A DNA stretch of 64,000 nucleotides from an uncultured delta proteobacterium (GTDB taxonomy: Bacteria > Desulfobacterota > Desulfobulbia > Desulfobulbales > Desulfurivibrionaceae), in NCBI GenBank assembly GCA_903869265.1, contig CAIPYE010000001.1, positions 248,001 to 312,000 of the forward strand, written 5' to 3'. The translations under genes and the position numbers were made by a program. Below the pieces are notes generated by a model, which worked only from the letters and a program-made list of their open reading frames with translations, was not told the origin of the DNA and ran no database searches. This document shows, piece after piece, positions 1-46,093 of the stretch (the first letter of the stretch is position 1; each line of letters begins with the position of its first letter).

Positions 1-857
1 AGGAGCTTATCGCCCAGGCCCTGCATGTGTTGAGCAATCGCAAAGGCGAGTTTGTCCCGCTCAATGTGGCGGGCCTTGACGACACCATGTTCGCCGACAC
101 CCTGTTCGGCCACAAAAAGGGCGCCTTCACCGGAGCCGAGCAGGCCAGGCGGGGGCTCATCGAGCAAGCCGCCGGCGGCACCCTGTTTCTCGATGAGATC
201 GGCGATCTCTCCCTGCTCTCGCAGACCAAGCTGCTGCGCCTTCTCCAGGAGCGGGAATTTCTGCCCCTGGGCTCGGACATCCCCAAGCGCACCGATTGCC
301 GGATAATCTTCGCCACCCACCAGAATCTTCAGGAGATGCAGGAAACCGGCGGGTTCCGCAAGGATCTTTACTACCGGCTCCATGCCCACCGCATCCATAT
401 CCCTCCCCTGCGGGAAAGACTCGACGACCTGCCCCTGCTGGTCGATTATTTCTTTGAGAAAGCAGCAACCCGGCTCAACAAGAAGAAGCCGACCTTCCCC
501 AAGGAGCTGATTTTCCTCTTGGGCACCTATGATTTCCCCGGCAATGTCCGGGAGCTTAAAAACATGGTGTTTGACGCGGTGAGCACCCATAAAAACCGCA
601 CCCTGTCCATGGATTCCTTCAAGGAGTATCTCCGGCTCAGGCGGCCTAATCTGGAAGATGAGGTCAAAAGACATCCTGAGTCCAGAACCCCCTTCGCCGA
701 TCTTGTCCAACTCCCCTCCATCCGCGAAGCTGGCTATCTCCTGGTGCTGGAGGCCCTGAACCGGGCCAAGGGCAACCAGGCCATTGCTGCGGAGATGCTC
801 GGCATCACCCGGCAGGCCCTCAACTGGCGGCTCAAACAAGCGGATAGGGAAGAGTGA
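1..857 (+). CDS. Sigma-54-dependent transcriptional activator, NtrC family (C-terminal part, 5' end outside window)
   Basis: The open frame runs in from base 3 without a start, so only the AAA+ and DNA-binding parts are present. Just after the cut comes the tail of the Walker A region (ELIAQALH), then the sigma-54 contact loop GAFTGA, the Walker B segment GGTLFLDEIGD, and an arginine-finger/sensor region ending in FPGNVRELKN. A Fis-type helix-turn-helix closes the protein (GNQAIAAEMLGITRQALNWR). The N-terminal sensory domain lies outside the window. A sigma-54 promoter 130 bases downstream (988-1003) suggests it may activate the receiver/rhodanese genes that follow; that link is inferred from position only. 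Confidence 0.93.
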   Translation, partial: ELIAQALHVLSNRKGEFVPLNVAGLDDTMFADTLFGHKKGAFTGAEQARRGLIEQAAGGTLFLDEIGDLSLLSQTKLLRLLQEREFLPLGSDIPKRTDCRIIFATHQNLQEMQETGGFRKDLYYRLHAHRIHIPPLRERLDDLPLLVDYFFEKAATRLNKKKPTFPKELIFLLGTYDFPGNVRELKNMVFDAVSTHKNRTLSMDSFKEYLRLRRPNLEDEVKRHPESRTPFADLVQLPSIREAGYLLVLEALNRAKGNQAIAAEMLGITRQALNWRLKQADREE

Positions 858-987: not shown

Positions 988-1003
988 TGGCACCCATTTT
1001 GCT
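988..1003 (+). promoter_or_regulatory. Sigma-54 (-24/-12) promoter
   Basis: TGGCAC, five bases, TTGCT: an exact match to the RpoN consensus. It lies in the gap after the sigma-54 activator gene and about 60 bases before the ATG at 1065, facing the receiver and rhodanese genes. Confidence 0.72.
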
Positions 1004-1064: not shown

Positions 1065-1511
1065 ATGGCCAGACAACATATCCTCCTTGCCGAAAGCAGG
1101 CCCAACCTACAGCATAGCCTTGGCCTGATGCTCAAACAGGCTGATTATCGGGTAAGCCTTGCCGAGAGCACGGAAGCGGCCCTGACCCTGGCTGAAGATT
1201 TAAACAATACCCCGGAGGCCGTTGTTCTGCTCATCGTTGACTTGGATTCGGCCTCAATGGATGCGTGCCGCACCTTCATGCAGACTCTGTCCGCCAGTGC
1301 CCTTACCGTCCCCTATTTGATTCTTGCGGAAGAGATCCCCGATCAGACCGTCGATGTCTTGAAAAAAAACGGCTGCCTGGCCTGCATCACCAAGCCATTC
1401 GAGCCGCAAACCTTGCTCAGAAGAGTAGATGAAGCCCTGAATCGGCTATCACCACAAAATAGGCAGTCGCCAGATAGGAAACCAGAAAATACCCGATTCG
1501 AAACCCCGTGA
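1065..1511 (+). CDS. Stand-alone response-regulator receiver protein
   Basis: A 148-residue protein with a single CheY-like fold and no output domain. The phospho-acceptor aspartate is in LLIVDLDS and the conserved lysine in CITKPF. The usual acidic pair near the N terminus is reduced to AE (HILLAESRP), so metal binding and phosphorylation may be weak. The ATG at 1065 is chosen because the frame upstream runs through the sigma-54 promoter. The tail after about residue 125 is polar and low-complexity. It sits 39 bases before the rhodanese gene and probably shares its transcript. Confidence 0.75.
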   Translation: MARQHILLAESRPNLQHSLGLMLKQADYRVSLAESTEAALTLAEDLNNTPEAVVLLIVDLDSASMDACRTFMQTLSASALTVPYLILAEEIPDQTVDVLKKNGCLACITKPFEPQTLLRRVDEALNRLSPQNRQSPDRKPENTRFETP

Positions 1512-1550
1512 GCCAACCCGAACAATCATTATTTTTCAAGGAGGACGATC

Positions 1551-2870
1551 ATGCAAAACAAGCAGTTACGCAAATGGATTCCATTCCTGCTGTTTACCGG
1601 GCTTCTAGTAGGCGGCCCGAGCCTCTCCGGCTCACCCGCCCTTGCTGCGGACCCAGCCCCGCAGGCCGCCCCCCAGAATGCCAACGCCTTTACCGGCAAA
1701 ATCACCGGCAAATCCAACAAGGCCAAGACCATCTCCATCGAGGTGCAGGGCAAGAACGAATTCCTCAAGTTCGATGACAAAACCACCGGTCTTGAACACG
1801 CGATTGAAGGCGAGGCGGCGATCGTCCAGTTCGAAATGCGCGGAGCCGACCGAGTTGCCACCGCTGTCAAGCCCAAGCTCGCCACCCTGCCTGAGGGGGT
1901 AACGGAAATGAAGACGGATGAGCTAGCCTCGCTCATCGCCAAGGGGCCGGAAGAGGGCAACTATGTATTGGTGGACTCCAGGCCTGCGGCACGCTACCAC
2001 GAGGGCCATATCCCCACCGCCATCTCGCTTCCCGACACCGTGCACATGGCAACCGGAGATGCCTATCTCCCCGGAGATGCACGCATGAAAAAGACCACCC
2101 TGATCTTCTATTGCGGGGGGTTCACGTGAGGCATGAGCCCTAAATCCGCCGGTCTGGCGAAAAAAATGGGTCATACCGATGTACGCGTCTTCCTTGCTGG
2201 CGTCCCCGGCTGGAAAAAAGCTGGAAAGAGTGTCGTGGCCTCGGAAAAATTTGTGCAAACAGGCAACATCGTTCTGGTGGACTTGCGCTCCAAGGAAGAA
2301 TACGAGGCGGGCCATATTCCCAAAGCGCACAGCATCCCCCTGGCCTCTCTGGCCGCAAAAGAAGACTCTCTCCCGAGCAAGGCACCCATCGTGGTCTATG
2401 CCAACTCCTTTGTCGAAGCGCAGCAAGGCTATAACCTGATGAAAAAATGGGGGGTAAAAACCGGCTCCATCTGGCCGGGCGGAGTAAAATCCTGGGCAGC
2501 CAACGGCAACAAGCTGGCCACCGGCCCCACTCCAGCCGCCATTACCTGGGTACGGCAGCTGGGCAAGGGCGAGGTCAGCGTAGCCGAATTCAAGAAGGCC
2601 ATGGAAGGCAGCTCCACCCAGGTCATCCTGGATGTCCGCACCAAAGATGAAGTGAAGGAATGCTCCTTCAAGAATTCCTTGGCCATTCCGCTGGATGAGA
2701 TCGAAAAACGGATCAGCGAATTGCCCAAGGACAAGGAGATGCTGATCCATTGCACCACCGGAGCCCGGGCGGAAATGGCCAAGAACGCCCTGGACAAGGC
2801 GGGAATCAAGAGCCGCTTCCTGCTTGCCGAGGTGGAGTGCTCACAAAGCAAGTGTGAGATCAACGAATAA
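1551..2870 (+). CDS. Periplasmic triple-rhodanese sulfurtransferase, probable selenoprotein (in-frame TGA 2127-2129 as Sec193)
   Basis: A Shine-Dalgarno AAGGAGG lies six bases before the ATG. The frame is open for 439 codons if the TGA at 2127-2129 is read through; it gives CGGFT-U-GMSPKSAG, the active-site loop of a rhodanese, with protein homology continuing in the same frame on both sides. Residues 1-33 are a signal peptide (ends ALAA). About 45-110 is a small beta-rich domain I do not recognise. Rhodanese 1 (about 110-220) has catalytic-loop Cys188 and Sec193. Rhodanese 2 (225-315) has Ala284 where the catalytic Cys should be, so it is probably inactive. Rhodanese 3 (335-430) has the canonical loop HCTTGAR with Cys401. 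A SECIS-like hairpin follows the TGA directly. The alternative is two separate genes split by a real stop, but the ATG at 2133 has no ribosome site and would begin mid-fold. Confidence 0.85.
2133..2174 (+). promoter_or_regulatory. Bacterial SECIS-like hairpin for selenocysteine insertion
   Basis: Four bases after the TGA a lower stem forms (ATGA-CCC at 2133-2140, with G2137 bulged, against GGGTCAT at 2168-2174). An upper stem CGCC/GGCG (2147-2150 with 2156-2159) closes a GGTCT loop. The loop has the same GGUCU sequence as the E. coli fdhF SECIS loop and lies 21 bases after the TGA, within the usual range. Folding was judged by eye. Confidence 0.7.
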
Positions 2871-3027: not shown

Positions 3028-3792
3028 TTATTTGACAAAGTAAACACAAGCAACAACACTGCCGATCCCCACTACTATTCGTCGCAACATCAGGGGACTC
3101 ACCCGCCCCGCCAGCCTGCCTCCCAATACGCCACCGACAAAGGCTCCCGCAGCCATGACCAAGGCGGCAGACCATACCACCTGCCCTGAAAACAGGAAAA
3201 AGACTGCGGCAGAGATATTGACGCTGAAGGCGATGAACTGCTTTAAGGCATTGAGCCGTGTCAATGAATCGTCCACCGCAATCCCCAGAACCGCCAGAAC
3301 GATCACACTCAAACCGGCGCCGAAATATCCACCGTACACTGCGGCGGCGGTCACCGGCAACAACGCCCATCTTTCATGGGAAAGGCTCCCGCTGCTCTGC
3401 CCGGTGCGCCGCACAAGCCAGGCGCGGATTCTGTCCTGCGCCGCCAGCAAGAGCACGGCAAACAGGATCAGATAGGGTACCAGCAGGCGAAAGACATGAT
3501 TCCCCGTATGCAGAAGCAGAAACCCACCGAGGATGCCTCCCAGAACACTGGCAGGGATAAGAAGCCACAGTCTGGACGCCTGGCCGCGAAGATCTTTTTT
3601 CTGGGCAAAGGTCGCCCCCAGATACCCTGGACAGAGCGCCACGGTGTTGGTCACGTTTGCCGCTATGGGCGGAAGCCCAACGGCGATCAGCATCGGAAAG
3701 GTGATGAGGGTGCCTCCCCCGGCAAGAGCATTCACCCCACCACCAACAACGGCAGCCAAGCCTACAATAATCAGATCCAATCCACCTATCAT
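3028..3792 (-). CDS. TauE/SafE-family membrane permease (putative sulfite/organosulfur anion exporter)
   Basis: A 254-residue hydrophobic protein with about eight membrane segments arranged as two halves. The family glycine-rich N terminus ([20 protein letters not shown]) and [11 protein letters not shown] are visible. Family members export sulfite, sulfoacetate or related anions; the actual substrate cannot be read here. Its start overlaps the stop of the upstream GntR gene by four bases, so the two are translationally coupled. The rhodanese on the other strand makes a sulfur-anion substrate plausible. Confidence 0.85.
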
Positions 3793-4695: not shown

Positions 4696-4707
4696 CGTGC
4701 GCAACAT

Positions 4708-4823
4708 TGTAGCCGAGATCCGTTGCCAAAAACGGATGCGGGGGACCCAGAGTATGGGGCGTATTCCTTAACCAGATAGGGCACTTCCAAGCCCGAGCCC
4801 GTCAGCTAACCTCGTAGGCATTT
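4708..4823 (+). promoter_or_regulatory. c-di-AMP riboswitch (ydaO/yuaA type)
   Basis: The hallmark blocks of this class occur in order: GGGGGACCCA (4740-4749), GGGGCG followed by ATTCC (4756-4767), an AGGGCAC/GCCCGAGCCCG region, then GTCAGCTAACCTCGTAGGC (4801-4819). The 5' GCCGAG and 3' CTCGTAGGC close the outer stem. It lies between a sigma-70 promoter and a K+ importer of the family first linked to this riboswitch. In known cases c-di-AMP binding turns expression off. Confidence 0.9.
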
Positions 4824-4847
4824 GGATGGGCAATGGTCCGCGTCGAG

Positions 4848-4926: not shown

Positions 4927-6909
4927 ATGCAGCCTGAGCAACCCCAAACGCGGGAGAATTCCGTCCAAAAAATCCGCAAGATACTCTTCGGCGCACCCAA
5001 GTACATCAAAGATCCCCAGCTGTTTCACAAGATGTCGCTGATCCCGGTTCTGGCCTGGGTCGGCCTCGGCGCCGACGGCCTTTCCTCCTCGGCCTATGGT
5101 CCGGAGGAGGCCTTCCGCGCCTTAGGCAGCCACACCTATCTGGCGATCCTGCTCGGCCTGGCCACGGCGCTTACCGTCTTTATCATCTCGGCAGGGTATT
5201 CCCGGATCATCGAACATTTTCCCCACGGCGGCGGAGGGTACATCGTCTCCACCCGCATGCTGGGCGAAAAGGCGGGCGTGGTTTCCGGCAGCGCCCTGCT
5301 GGTGGATTATGTCCTCACCATCACCATCTCCGTGGCCTCCTGCACGGATGCGCTCTTCAGCTATCTGCCTCTCCATTTTCACCACTTCAAAGTGCCCTTT
5401 GCCTGCTTCCTGATTCTGCTGCTCATTGTGCTCAACCTGCGCGGGGTCAAGGAGTCGATCTCGATCATGGTTCCCATCTTCATGGTTTTCGTGGCCACCC
5501 ATCTTCTTCTCCTGCTGGACGGCATCTTCACCCACTCCGACCGGTTCGCCCCGCTGGCGCAGGACTTCCATAGCGGGCTACAGCAGGACATGGCCAGTCT
5601 CGGAATCTTCGGAATCCTGATGCTTTTCTTCCGGGCCTACTCCCTGGGCGGCGGCACCTACACCGGGATCGAGGCGGTGTCCAACGGCATCCAGATCATG
5701 CGCGAGCCCAGGGTCAAAACCGGCAAGCGGACCATGGTGTACATGGCCACCTCCCTGGCCTTCACCGCCGGGGTGCTGTTCCTCTGCTACGCGCTGGTCG
5801 GGGTTATGCCGATTACCGGCAAAACCCTGAACTCAGTGCTGGCTGACACTCTGTTTGCCGACTGGCCCCTGGGACACACCATCGCCTTCATCACCATCTT
5901 CTCGGAAGGTGCCCTGCTTCTGGTCGCAGCGCAAACCGGGTTCGTGGATGGGCCAAGGGTCATGGCCAACATGGCGGTGGATTCCTGGCTCCCCCACCGT
6001 TTTGCCGCCCTGTCCGAGCGGCTCACCATGCACAACGGCATCGTCTTGATGGGTCTTTCCGCCATCGGGTTGCTGCTGTACAGCCATGGCTCGGTTTCCG
6101 CCCTGGTGGTCATGTACTCCATCAATGTTTTTGTCACCTTCTCCCTCTCCCAGCTCGGCATGTCGCTGTTTTACATCAAGCGGCGACATGAAGACCGGCA
6201 GTGGAAACGGCACCTGAACATCCACGCCATAGCCTTCGTCCTCTGTCTGACCATCCTGACCATCACCACCTACGAAAAATTCACCGAAGGCGGCTGGGTC
6301 ACCTTCCTCATCACCTTGCTGGTCATCGTCGGCTGCAACCAGATCCGCACCCATTACCTCAAGGTGCGCCAGGGCATGGCCGATCTTGATGAAACCCTGC
6401 TCGCCTTCCCCACCCCCGGCCCGGCCAACACCGCCATGCCAAGCCCGGAGGCGCAGACCGCGATCCAGCTGGTCTCCTCCTACAGCGGCTTTGGCATCAA
6501 CGCGCTTTTTTCCATCATCAAGAACTTCCCCGGCACCTACAAAAACATCATCTTCGTTTCGGTGGCGGTGATCGATTCCGGCTCATTCAAGGGCGCAGAC
6601 GAGATAGAGGCCCTGGAAAAATCCACTGCCGCCTCCTTGCGAAACTACGTGACCCTGGCCCGGAGGCTCGGTTTCGCCGCGGACCAGCGGATGCTGGTGG
6701 CCACGGACGTGGTGGAAGGGGCAACCAACCTGTGTCGGGATATCTCCCAGGAGTTTCCCAAGTCCACCGTGTTCACCGGCCAACTCACCTTCGGCCTGGA
6801 AAAATTCTACCACCGCATCCTGCACAACGAGACCGCCTTTGCCATCCAGCGCCGGTTGCAAAGCGACAACCTGACCACGGTCATTCTCCCGGTCCGGGTC
6901 TGCTTGTAA
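4927..6909 (+). CDS. kimA: KimA-type potassium importer (APC superfamily permease)
   Basis: 660 residues. About twelve transmembrane helices fill residues 35-470, with the family signature LGADGLSSSAYGPEEAF near the start and HGGGGYIVS. A cytoplasmic domain of about 170 residues follows, resembling the USP-like C-terminal half of KimA. KimA proteins import K+ with high affinity and are shut by c-di-AMP, both on the protein and through the riboswitch found here upstream. AAGGAG six bases before the ATG at 4927 decides the start over the out-of-frame ATG at 4922. The symbol is by family and regulatory context; amino-acid transport cannot be excluded. Confidence 0.85.
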   Translation: MQPEQPQTRENSVQKIRKILFGAPKYIKDPQLFHKMSLIPVLAWVGLGADGLSSSAYGPEEAFRALGSHTYLAILLGLATALTVFIISAGYSRIIEHFPHGGGGYIVSTRMLGEKAGVVSGSALLVDYVLTITISVASCTDALFSYLPLHFHHFKVPFACFLILLLIVLNLRGVKESISIMVPIFMVFVATHLLLLLDGIFTHSDRFAPLAQDFHSGLQQDMASLGIFGILMLFFRAYSLGGGTYTGIEAVSNGIQIMREPRVKTGKRTMVYMATSLAFTAGVLFLCYALVGVMPITGKTLNSVLADTLFADWPLGHTIAFITIFSEGALLLVAAQTGFVDGPRVMANMAVDSWLPHRFAALSERLTMHNGIVLMGLSAIGLLLYSHGSVSALVVMYSINVFVTFSLSQLGMSLFYIKRRHEDRQWKRHLNIHAIAFVLCLTILTITTYEKFTEGGWVTFLITLLVIVGCNQIRTHYLKVRQGMADLDETLLAFPTPGPANTAMPSPEAQTAIQLVSSYSGFGINALFSIIKNFPGTYKNIIFVSVAVIDSGSFKGADEIEALEKSTAASLRNYVTLARRLGFAADQRMLVATDVVEGATNLCRDISQEFPKSTVFTGQLTFGLEKFYHRILHNETAFAIQRRLQSDNLTTVILPVRVCL

Positions 6910-8040: not shown

Positions 8041-8918
8041 AAAGACCGTTGAGCATGACCGGCTATGGCCGGGGCGAAGTGGCCGGGACCAGAAGCTGGA
8101 CCGTGGAGGTCCGCTCGGTGAACCACAAGTTTCTTGATCTGAGCATCAAGATCCCCCGCAAGTATCTGGGCCTTGAAGAGCGGATCAAAAAAGAGATCAC
8201 CGCCCACTACAGCCGGGGCCATGTGGATGTCTACCTCAACCCCGGCGCCGAGGCGGGGGACACCATCCGCTTGGCAGCCAACCTGCCCCTGGCCCGCGAT
8301 TATTATCAATGTCTGGAGGCGATCCGCCAGGATCTCTCCCTGCCAGATCCCCCGACCCTGGCCATGATCCAGAACTACAAGGAGGTCATCGTTTCCCACG
8401 AGGAGGAGGAAGATCTCGATGCTGTCTGGCCGCAGGTCTTCGAGGCTCTTAGCCAGGCGCTGAACATGGCACAGGACATGCGGGCTCAGGAAGGTGCGGC
8501 TCTCAAAGCCGAGCTCGGCCAACGGTTGCAGGAGTTTGCCAAGACCGTGGAGACCATTGCCCAGGATGTCCCCGAAATCGTCCAACGAAGGACCGAGAAG
8601 CTCAAGGAGCGGTTGGCCATTCTCCTGCAAGGGGTTGATCTTGACCCCCTCCGCTTGGCCCAGGAAGTGGCGATGATGGCCGACAAGGGTGATGTCACCG
8701 AAGAGGTGGTTCGCCTCCGTAGCCACATCAGCCAGTTTTCCGGCTTTCTTGCAGCGGACGAACCCGTGGGCCGCAGGCTTGACTTCCTCCTCCAGGAATT
8801 CCTGCGGGAGATCAACACCCTGGCCTCAAAGATCAGCGATGCCCCCACCGCCCATCTCACCGTGGAGTTGAAAACCGAGGTGGAAAAGCTCCGGGAACAG
8901 ATTCAGAATATTGAGTAA
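8037..8918 (+). CDS. yicC: YicC-family endoribonuclease
   Basis: 293 residues with the N-terminal motif MTGYGRGE and VEVRSVNHKFLD, and the C-terminal DUF1732 region (EVVRLRSHISQF and GRRLDFLLQEFLREINT). The family consists of metal-dependent endoribonucleases; E. coli YicC is implicated in small-RNA turnover. The acidic/histidine-rich C-terminal segment carries the presumed metal ligands. It is coupled to hldA by a four-base overlap and followed by the DUF370 gene and gmk, a very common arrangement. Confidence 0.9.
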   Translation: MKRPLSMTGYGRGEVAGTRSWTVEVRSVNHKFLDLSIKIPRKYLGLEERIKKEITAHYSRGHVDVYLNPGAEAGDTIRLAANLPLARDYYQCLEAIRQDLSLPDPPTLAMIQNYKEVIVSHEEEEDLDAVWPQVFEALSQALNMAQDMRAQEGAALKAELGQRLQEFAKTVETIAQDVPEIVQRRTEKLKERLAILLQGVDLDPLRLAQEVAMMADKGDVTEEVVRLRSHISQFSGFLAADEPVGRRLDFLLQEFLREINTLASKISDAPTAHLTVELKTEVEKLREQIQNIE

Positions 8919-8927
8919 GGAACAACC

Positions 8928-9215
8928 ATGTCAGACCAAAGAATGATCAACGTGGGCTTTGGCAACGCCGTACTGGCCGGCAGGGTGCTGGCGGTGGTGA
9001 ACCCAAAATCCTCCCCCATGAAAAAACTGCGGGAAGAGGCCAAGGAGCAGAAACGGCTCATCGATGTCACCGAAGGGAGGAGAACCCGCTCCATCATCAT
9101 CCTGGACAGCAACCATGTGGTTCTCTCCTCGGTGCAGCCGGAAACCATCACCCTGCGCTTCATGGCCTCCTACGACCGGCACGATGAAGAGCTGCCGGAA
9201 AAGGCGAGTAAATGA
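8928..9215 (+). CDS. DUF370/RemA-like small regulatory protein
   Basis: 95 residues matching the DUF370 family ([20 protein letters not shown] and [16 protein letters not shown]). In Bacillus the homologue RemA is a DNA-binding regulator of matrix genes; outside Firmicutes its role is not settled. It overlaps gmk by four bases and follows yicC by nine, so it is in the same operon. Confidence 0.88.
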
Positions 9216-38374: not shown

Positions 38375-38390
38375 AGCAAGGTGTGTGCCA
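38375..38390 (-). promoter_or_regulatory. Sigma-54 promoter for NrfD paralogue 1
   Basis: On the minus strand TGGCAC (38390-38385), five bases, TTGCT (38379-38375): an exact RpoN consensus. A sigma-54 activator gene lies 2.4 kb away (40784). Confidence 0.72.
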
Positions 38391-45376: not shown

Positions 45377-46093
45377 CATACTCCCATTTTTGGTATTTTT
45401 ACTGTGCACGTTTAGCCCACTATTCAATTTCCAACAAATAGTAAGGCGCAATATCTCATTTTCCAGCAATACCTCAACAGATGATTGCGGACAGAATTAA
45501 AGCGAAAAAACCGAGATATAGCAGCACGACAGACAGGAATAACACACGGAAAGCCAAACCTCGATGCCAAAAAACTCCAAACACACTGCGCTGGCAATAT
45601 TGCCCGAATATGACGCAATGTGATCCATTACCCACCAGAAATAGGATCAAAATAAGCCATACGCGTATAACTATACCCGCAAGAGAAAATCCGGACAACC
45701 CAAAAAAACGAGACATTGCAGGTCGAGCAACATCTTGGAATAACAAGACATAAGAAAGAAATAAAAAACAAAAACGCCCAGAGTCCGACTCACTGGCACG
45801 CACATTGCTAATACTAAAATGCAGGGACAACATGGTTCTCCGACGACCATGGGAGAAAAAAGACAAACGACCTTCTGTCTTTCCGTAACAAGCGGACTCA
45901 ATCATCCCCTTCTTTATAAAGGATCCTCGGTGGCGGCCTAGGATCCTTTATTTTTTTATCCCCCCCCCTCGGCAGCCTCTCCTCAAGAAATGTAGTGACC
46001 TTGCCGGGCTAACCCTGTATTATCTTTCGCTGACAATACAATAGCGGGGCCGACAGCGTCCCATGCCACCCCTTATAATGAATATATTTTTCA
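45377..46093. other. AT-rich gene-poor region before the PBP1A gene
   Basis: About 700 bases, visibly lower in GC than neighbours. The best frame is an 80-residue hydrophobic peptide on the minus strand (45474-45716, MSRFFGLSGFSLAGIVIRVW start), with no ribosome site, so not called as a gene. A plus-strand terminator-like hairpin closes it at 45917-45957. I see nothing else. Confidence 0.45.
45917..45957 (+). terminator. Plus-strand terminator-like hairpin without a preceding gene
   Basis: TAAAGGATCCT and AGGATCCTTTA pair around CGGTGGCGGCCT, then seven T. The nearest plus-strand gene upstream ends 2.7 kb before. Confidence 0.65.

Follow-up and report, generated by a model that had tools for sequence, protein, structure and literature searches.

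A predicted exported selenoprotein with three rhodanese domains in a sulfur-metabolising lineage of the Desulfobacterota

We propose that the gene at positions 1551-2870 encodes an exported three-domain rhodanese selenoprotein, in which the UGA at codon 193 is, with high confidence, translated as selenocysteine by means of a SECIS hairpin lying directly 3' of it. The window (the whole stretch of 64,000 nucleotides that was analysed) belongs to an uncultured member of the Desulfurivibrionaceae. Translation of 1551-2870 with TGA as a residue runs through 439 residues to a TAA stop and meets just one in-frame TGA, at U193. The features on which the argument relies are the following, in the order of their coordinates, the last of them being outside the window:

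1..857 (+): NtrC-type sigma-54 response regulator, 3' part
988..1003 (+): sigma-54 type promoter motif TGGCACCCATTTTGCT, a perfect TGGCAC-N5-TTGCT
1065..1511 (+): stand-alone receiver-domain protein (Pfam Response_reg, E 1e-7)
1538..1544 (+): Shine-Dalgarno-like AAGGAGG, 5' of ATG 1551, by direct reading
1551..2870 (+): very probable selenoprotein gene, exported triple rhodanese of 439 residues with Sec193
1551..1646 (+): N-terminus resembling a signal peptide (...SGSPALAADP, about residues 1-32), as read from the sequence
1686..1880 (+): all-beta N-terminal segment, residues about 46-110, without a Pfam match (model confidence about 50-80)
1902..2234 (+): rhodanese domain 1, about residues 118-228, loop C188-GGFT-U193-GMS
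2112..2114 (+): codon TGC of Cys188, invariant in the alignment
2127..2129 (+): TGA, very probably decoded as Sec193
2146..2160 (+): bacterial SECIS-type hairpin, stem CGCC/GGCG (2147-2150 with 2156-2159) and apical loop GGUCU (2151-2155)
2244..2525 (+): rhodanese domain 2, about residues 232-325, active-site loop without cysteine
2565..2825 (+): rhodanese domain 3, about residues 339-425, loop HC401TTGARAEM
2751-2753 (+): codon of Cys401, invariant in the alignment
G000:C1:244977-247346: PAS histidine kinase, just upstream of the NtrC-type regulator

The Pfam family PF00581 matches three stretches of the protein (145 bits, E 1e-42, above the gathering score). The active-site cysteine opens the catalytic loop in domain 1 (Cys188) and in domain 3 (Cys401) and is missing in domain 2, which, with no cysteine in its active-site loop, is probably inactive. 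In several relatives the signal peptide-like end is replaced by a lipobox-like cysteine, as judged by eye, and both kinds of N-terminus point to the periplasm as the likely destination of the triple rhodanese. An AlphaFold2 model built with nine close relatives reached a mean pLDDT of 56.8 and a pTM of 0.43, values too low for a fold search or for measuring distances in the loops.

The case for selenocysteine is essentially comparative. Among 54 distinct relatives, 43 have TGA at column 193 of the alignment and the other 11 have Cys; no third residue occurs there. The same single TGA at the same column in the former, together with Cys in all the latter, therefore excludes chance. The Cys relatives have one uninterrupted chain at this locus. 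The columns of Cys188, which precedes column 193 by five residues, of residue 193 itself (U being written as C) and of Cys401 are all invariant, and every Sec member has the motif U-x-x-S, except two with U-x-x-T (the motifs are UGMS, UVLS and UALT; the window protein has U193-G-M-S196). In relatives of the same genus, purifying selection is seen on both sides of the TGA, with dN/dS of 0.08-0.12 before it and of 0.15-0.24 after it. The initial annotation, which had been made from the letters of the DNA, had described a frame that is protein-like on both sides of the TGA and a selenocysteine in the active-site loop, five residues from Cys188. These statements are borne out by the selection just mentioned and by the spacing in the 439-residue translation, and the relatives examined all have Cys or Sec at residue 193, none an unrelated residue. 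Its reading of the loop has to be amended on one point: CGGFTU and SPKSA are both present, but the residues GM between them had been left out, so that domain 1 reads Y-C188-G-G-F-T-U193-G-M-S-P-K-S-A. Two further things which it had proposed to look for, a SECIS element downstream of the TGA and the genes selA, selB, selC and selD in the genome, were both found, as we now describe.

The stem of the SECIS-type hairpin begins 17 bases 3' of the UGA, and its apical loop contains the G required of a bacterial SECIS. Its four core pairs are kept in the same register in all 43 Sec members, as against one of the 11 Cys members (Fisher p 5e-10, a value which ignores kinship). Over 23 distinct Sec sequences, changes on both sides of the helix are observed at four of its six pairs; not one of 500 shuffles reaches the observed covariation on any of five measures, and versions of the helix slid along the sequence all score far below the true register. 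Taken alone, the hairpin of the window is no more stable than shuffled sequences (z -0.30 and -1.22; synonymous-shuffle p 0.09), which is unsurprising for so short an element. The support for this candidate SECIS comes from comparison across relatives and not from thermodynamic folding. It is scarcely credible that the TGA is a real stop, due to a recent nonsense mutation or to a split gene, with a 192-residue protein followed by a second one from ATG 2133, even though this ATG stands four bases 3' of the TGA and opens a 245-residue ORF: this TGA is found at one and the same column in many families, the Cys relatives are unbroken, some Sec members (L055, L066 and L069) have no start codon in the first codons past the TGA, selection persists beyond it and the hairpin tracks it.

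The genome also contains what is needed for decoding UGA as selenocysteine: a tRNA-Sec (selC) scoring 72.5 bits for a cut-off of 47, and selB (369.7 bits), selA (614.7 bits) and selD (379.1 bits), each over its cut-off. This selD is a selenoprotein itself, with an in-frame TGA in AAGUAAK, the catalytic site of SelD. From this TGA and from the presence of the decoding genes, it is therefore very probable that UGA is decoded as Sec elsewhere in the organism too.

A search with the protein as query gave matches in 47 of the 395 genomes of the phylum, and the stronger of these matches mostly contain one internal TGA. Searching with the alignment showed the family to be present in 169 of the 258 genomes of the class, that is in about two thirds of them. 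Among the 150 matches listed for the class, 123 have exactly one internal TGA and 27 have none; these figures count the TGAs in each match, the position of the TGA being confirmed for the fetched loci. A search of plasmids for named relatives returned distant rhodaneses only. In a maximum-likelihood tree of 53 rows, seven changes between Sec and Cys are all forced by well supported branches, which means at least seven switches, and three Cys relatives (L021-L023) are very close to the Sec-bearing protein of the window. Such repeated switching is the pattern expected of interchangeable redox residues.

The genes which surround the rhodanese suggest that its expression is controlled by a signal. 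The PAS histidine kinase, which has a predicted periplasmic region, and the NtrC-type regulator adjoin the rhodanese gene in most of the examined relatives of the same order, and some more distant relatives have, next to the gene, a sigma-54 regulator from the same cluster. The sigma-54 motif lies 563 bases 5' of the rhodanese start and also 5' of the receiver gene; the receiver gene and the rhodanese are probably cotranscribed from this promoter. Comparable motifs are present in 18 upstream regions, that of the window included (shuffle p <= 0.03), and rpoN was found in the genome. The kinase and regulator pair, the motif and rpoN together make it likely that transcription is induced by the adjacent NtrC-type regulator. 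The sigma-54 consensus (TGGCACN5TTGCW) is matched exactly at two more places in the window, 38375-38390 (-) and 45794-45809 (+).

The loci examined have no conserved sulfur-metabolism gene next to the rhodanese, and the other neighbours (purine enzyme, ABC ATPase, chemotaxis receptor, glycosyl hydrolase, SPFH and TPR proteins) look unrelated. Just 3' of the selenoprotein gene, 3028-3792 (-) encodes a polytopic membrane protein resembling, by eye, exporters of the TauE/SafE type. Further on, a c-di-AMP riboswitch (Rfam RF00379, 79.2 bits) at 4701-4835 (+) directly precedes the gene 4927-6909, whose product is a 660-residue membrane protein similar to permeases of the APC family, perhaps a potassium transporter. 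In one relative (L073), the gene that contains Sec has as its neighbour a second rhodanese, with a Cys-Cys loop CKGPKC (8139-8999, minus strand), the two being on opposite strands.

As to the role of the protein, we tentatively take as the most likely one that of a periplasmic sulfane-sulfur/thiol redox enzyme which cycles through a Cys188-Sec193 selenenylsulfide; we infer this chemistry, as we do the substrate, the direction of the flow, the electron donor and the inducing signal. In the periplasm, polysulfide, thiosulfate or a persulfide would donate sulfane sulfur to Cys188. Sec193 would attack the resulting Cys188 persulfide, so that sulfide is released and the selenenylsulfide is left, to be reduced by a periplasmic electron donor. 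Cys401 of domain 3 may accept the sulfur or hand it on, and domain 2 would be a scaffold. The whole would amount to a selenium-dependent sulfur-transfer role in the periplasm.

A candidate for the source of electrons is suggested by some of the relatives: an N-terminal motif of CXXCH or CX3-4CH type is present in 12 of the 54 sequences (L054, L056, L059-L066, L068 and L069). These motifs point to electron transfer. In these members a single haem c and a selenocysteine rhodanese may possibly be carried by one chain, and the haem, if bound, could give electrons to the Cys188-Sec193 pair or take them from it. DsbD, for its part, was rejected as electron donor for this genome, where the DsbD/CcdA transmembrane family (PF02683) has no match, while 10 of 14 control genomes do match it.

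A role in general thiol redox or in protection against stress has about the same likelihood as the sulfur-transfer mechanism. The selenoprotein would then be a general periplasmic thiol/selenol oxidoreductase, or a protein of peroxide or metal(loid) stress, and its rhodanese fold would be no more than a scaffold. The kinase, the NtrC-type regulator and sigma-54 do have the look of regulation devoted to a stress or a signal, Sec and Cys replace each other at residue 193 in the manner of thiol oxidoreductases, a subgroup carries haem-c motifs, and the related selenoprotein TsoB is described as similar to a rhodanese/DsbD fusion. However, domain 3 retains the canonical loop HCxTGxRAEM with its invariant Cys, and the hosts belong to a sulfur-metabolising lineage. 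We find it improbable that Sec193 and Cys188 serve, in the way demonstrated for a rhodanese substituted with selenium, to bind or reduce selenite or to deliver selenium. PMC5877670 reports, after Ogasawara 2001, that rhodanese can form a perselenide in vitro, and also that ExtH of the selenite/tellurite cluster of Geobacter is rhodanese-like; but the present family is not ExtH, with no match over the cut-off, and among the loci examined no selenium-metabolism gene is conserved beside it.

If the sulfur-transfer reading is extended to the regulation and to the haem-c members, the protein would be a signal-induced periplasmic selenoenzyme of sulfur-metabolising Desulfobacterota, in which the rhodanese Cys-Sec pair reduces the sulfur of polysulfide or persulfide, the electrons coming, in certain lineages, from a haem c of the same chain. 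This wider picture is a rather doubtful one. If it were true, the reduction of polysulfide or persulfide would be an unrecognised selenium-dependent step of anaerobic sulfur cycling, which has escaped notice because the gene is truncated at its UGA in annotation, and the need for selenium would link the sulfur turnover of sediments to the supply of this element. A reading with table 11 does break the rhodanese gene at the UGA. Periplasmic rhodaneses, possibly of this family, are reported to be strongly expressed in Desulfurivibrio and in cable bacteria (PMC13047784), and rankings of such rhodaneses in sulfur disproportionators and cable bacteria may score a truncated half. The family is widespread and largely unstudied, its members are likely to be exported and a dedicated sensor system is probably its switch, and the sigma-54 regulator pair offers a direct experimental handle on the inducer of the rhodanese gene.

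Finally, the protein must be compared with the systems already known. The initial annotation had called a selenium-dependent step in periplasmic sulfur transfer unusual. This was overstated, as rhodanese selenoproteins have been predicted since 2005 according to the table of a 2026 review (PMC13188914), which includes several of them, among which form 1 (UxxS) and form 5 (TsoB, UxxxxU). An earlier survey (PMC5029168) also gives, for a 'sulfurtransferase homologous to a rhodanese-like protein', the numbers 24 and 25, which we take as those of organisms and of proteins. Form 1 (WP_010941598.1), credited in the review to Zhang and Gladyshev 2005, shares with our family the rhodanese fold and the UxxS motif, which UGMS and UVLS fit; judged from these two characters, orthology with it is likely. 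A triple-domain build, the register of the SECIS and the regulation are not described for form 1 in the part of the review that deals with it.

None of the curated NCBI family models reaches its cut-off on the whole protein. The best-matching selenoprotein model for domain 1 is TsoB (NF045694), whose match spans residues 120-231 or their equivalents and scores 45 to 89 bits. The spacing of its loop is the same and Sec is at the second position in both, but TsoB has Sec at both positions (UxxxxU) and resembles a rhodanese/DsbD fusion, whereas our family has Cys first and one Sec, and the window protein has no DsbD part. With 45.3 bits for a cut-off of 805, a single Sec and no DsbD part, the window protein was not identified as TsoB. 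The rhodanese-related (seleno)protein NF041203, whose best match in the window protein is in domain 3 and below the cut-off, has CxU in place of CxxxxU. By sequence, the closest solved relative of domain 1 is BH2092 (PDB 3nhv/3o3w), a single domain without Sec, whose loop CWGPAC has Cys at both positions, the second being aligned to Sec193. TIGR03865 (PQQ-dependent catabolism-associated CXXCW protein) matches weakly over the loop of domain 1 (26 bits for a cut-off of 128) and, unlike the window protein, has no Sec. ExtH (NF040901), a rhodanese-like protein of similar size from the selenium-related cluster of Geobacter (the selenite/tellurite reduction operon), was discarded as an identity: the window protein does not match it at E 0.1 (cut-off 200 bits), nor does anything in its own genome. 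The window gene belongs to a kind of rhodanese selenoprotein which has already been predicted and is functionally uncharacterised; what is added here is the three-domain anatomy, the sigma-54 promoter beside a PAS-kinase/NtrC-type pair, and the subgroup with N-terminal haem-c motifs.
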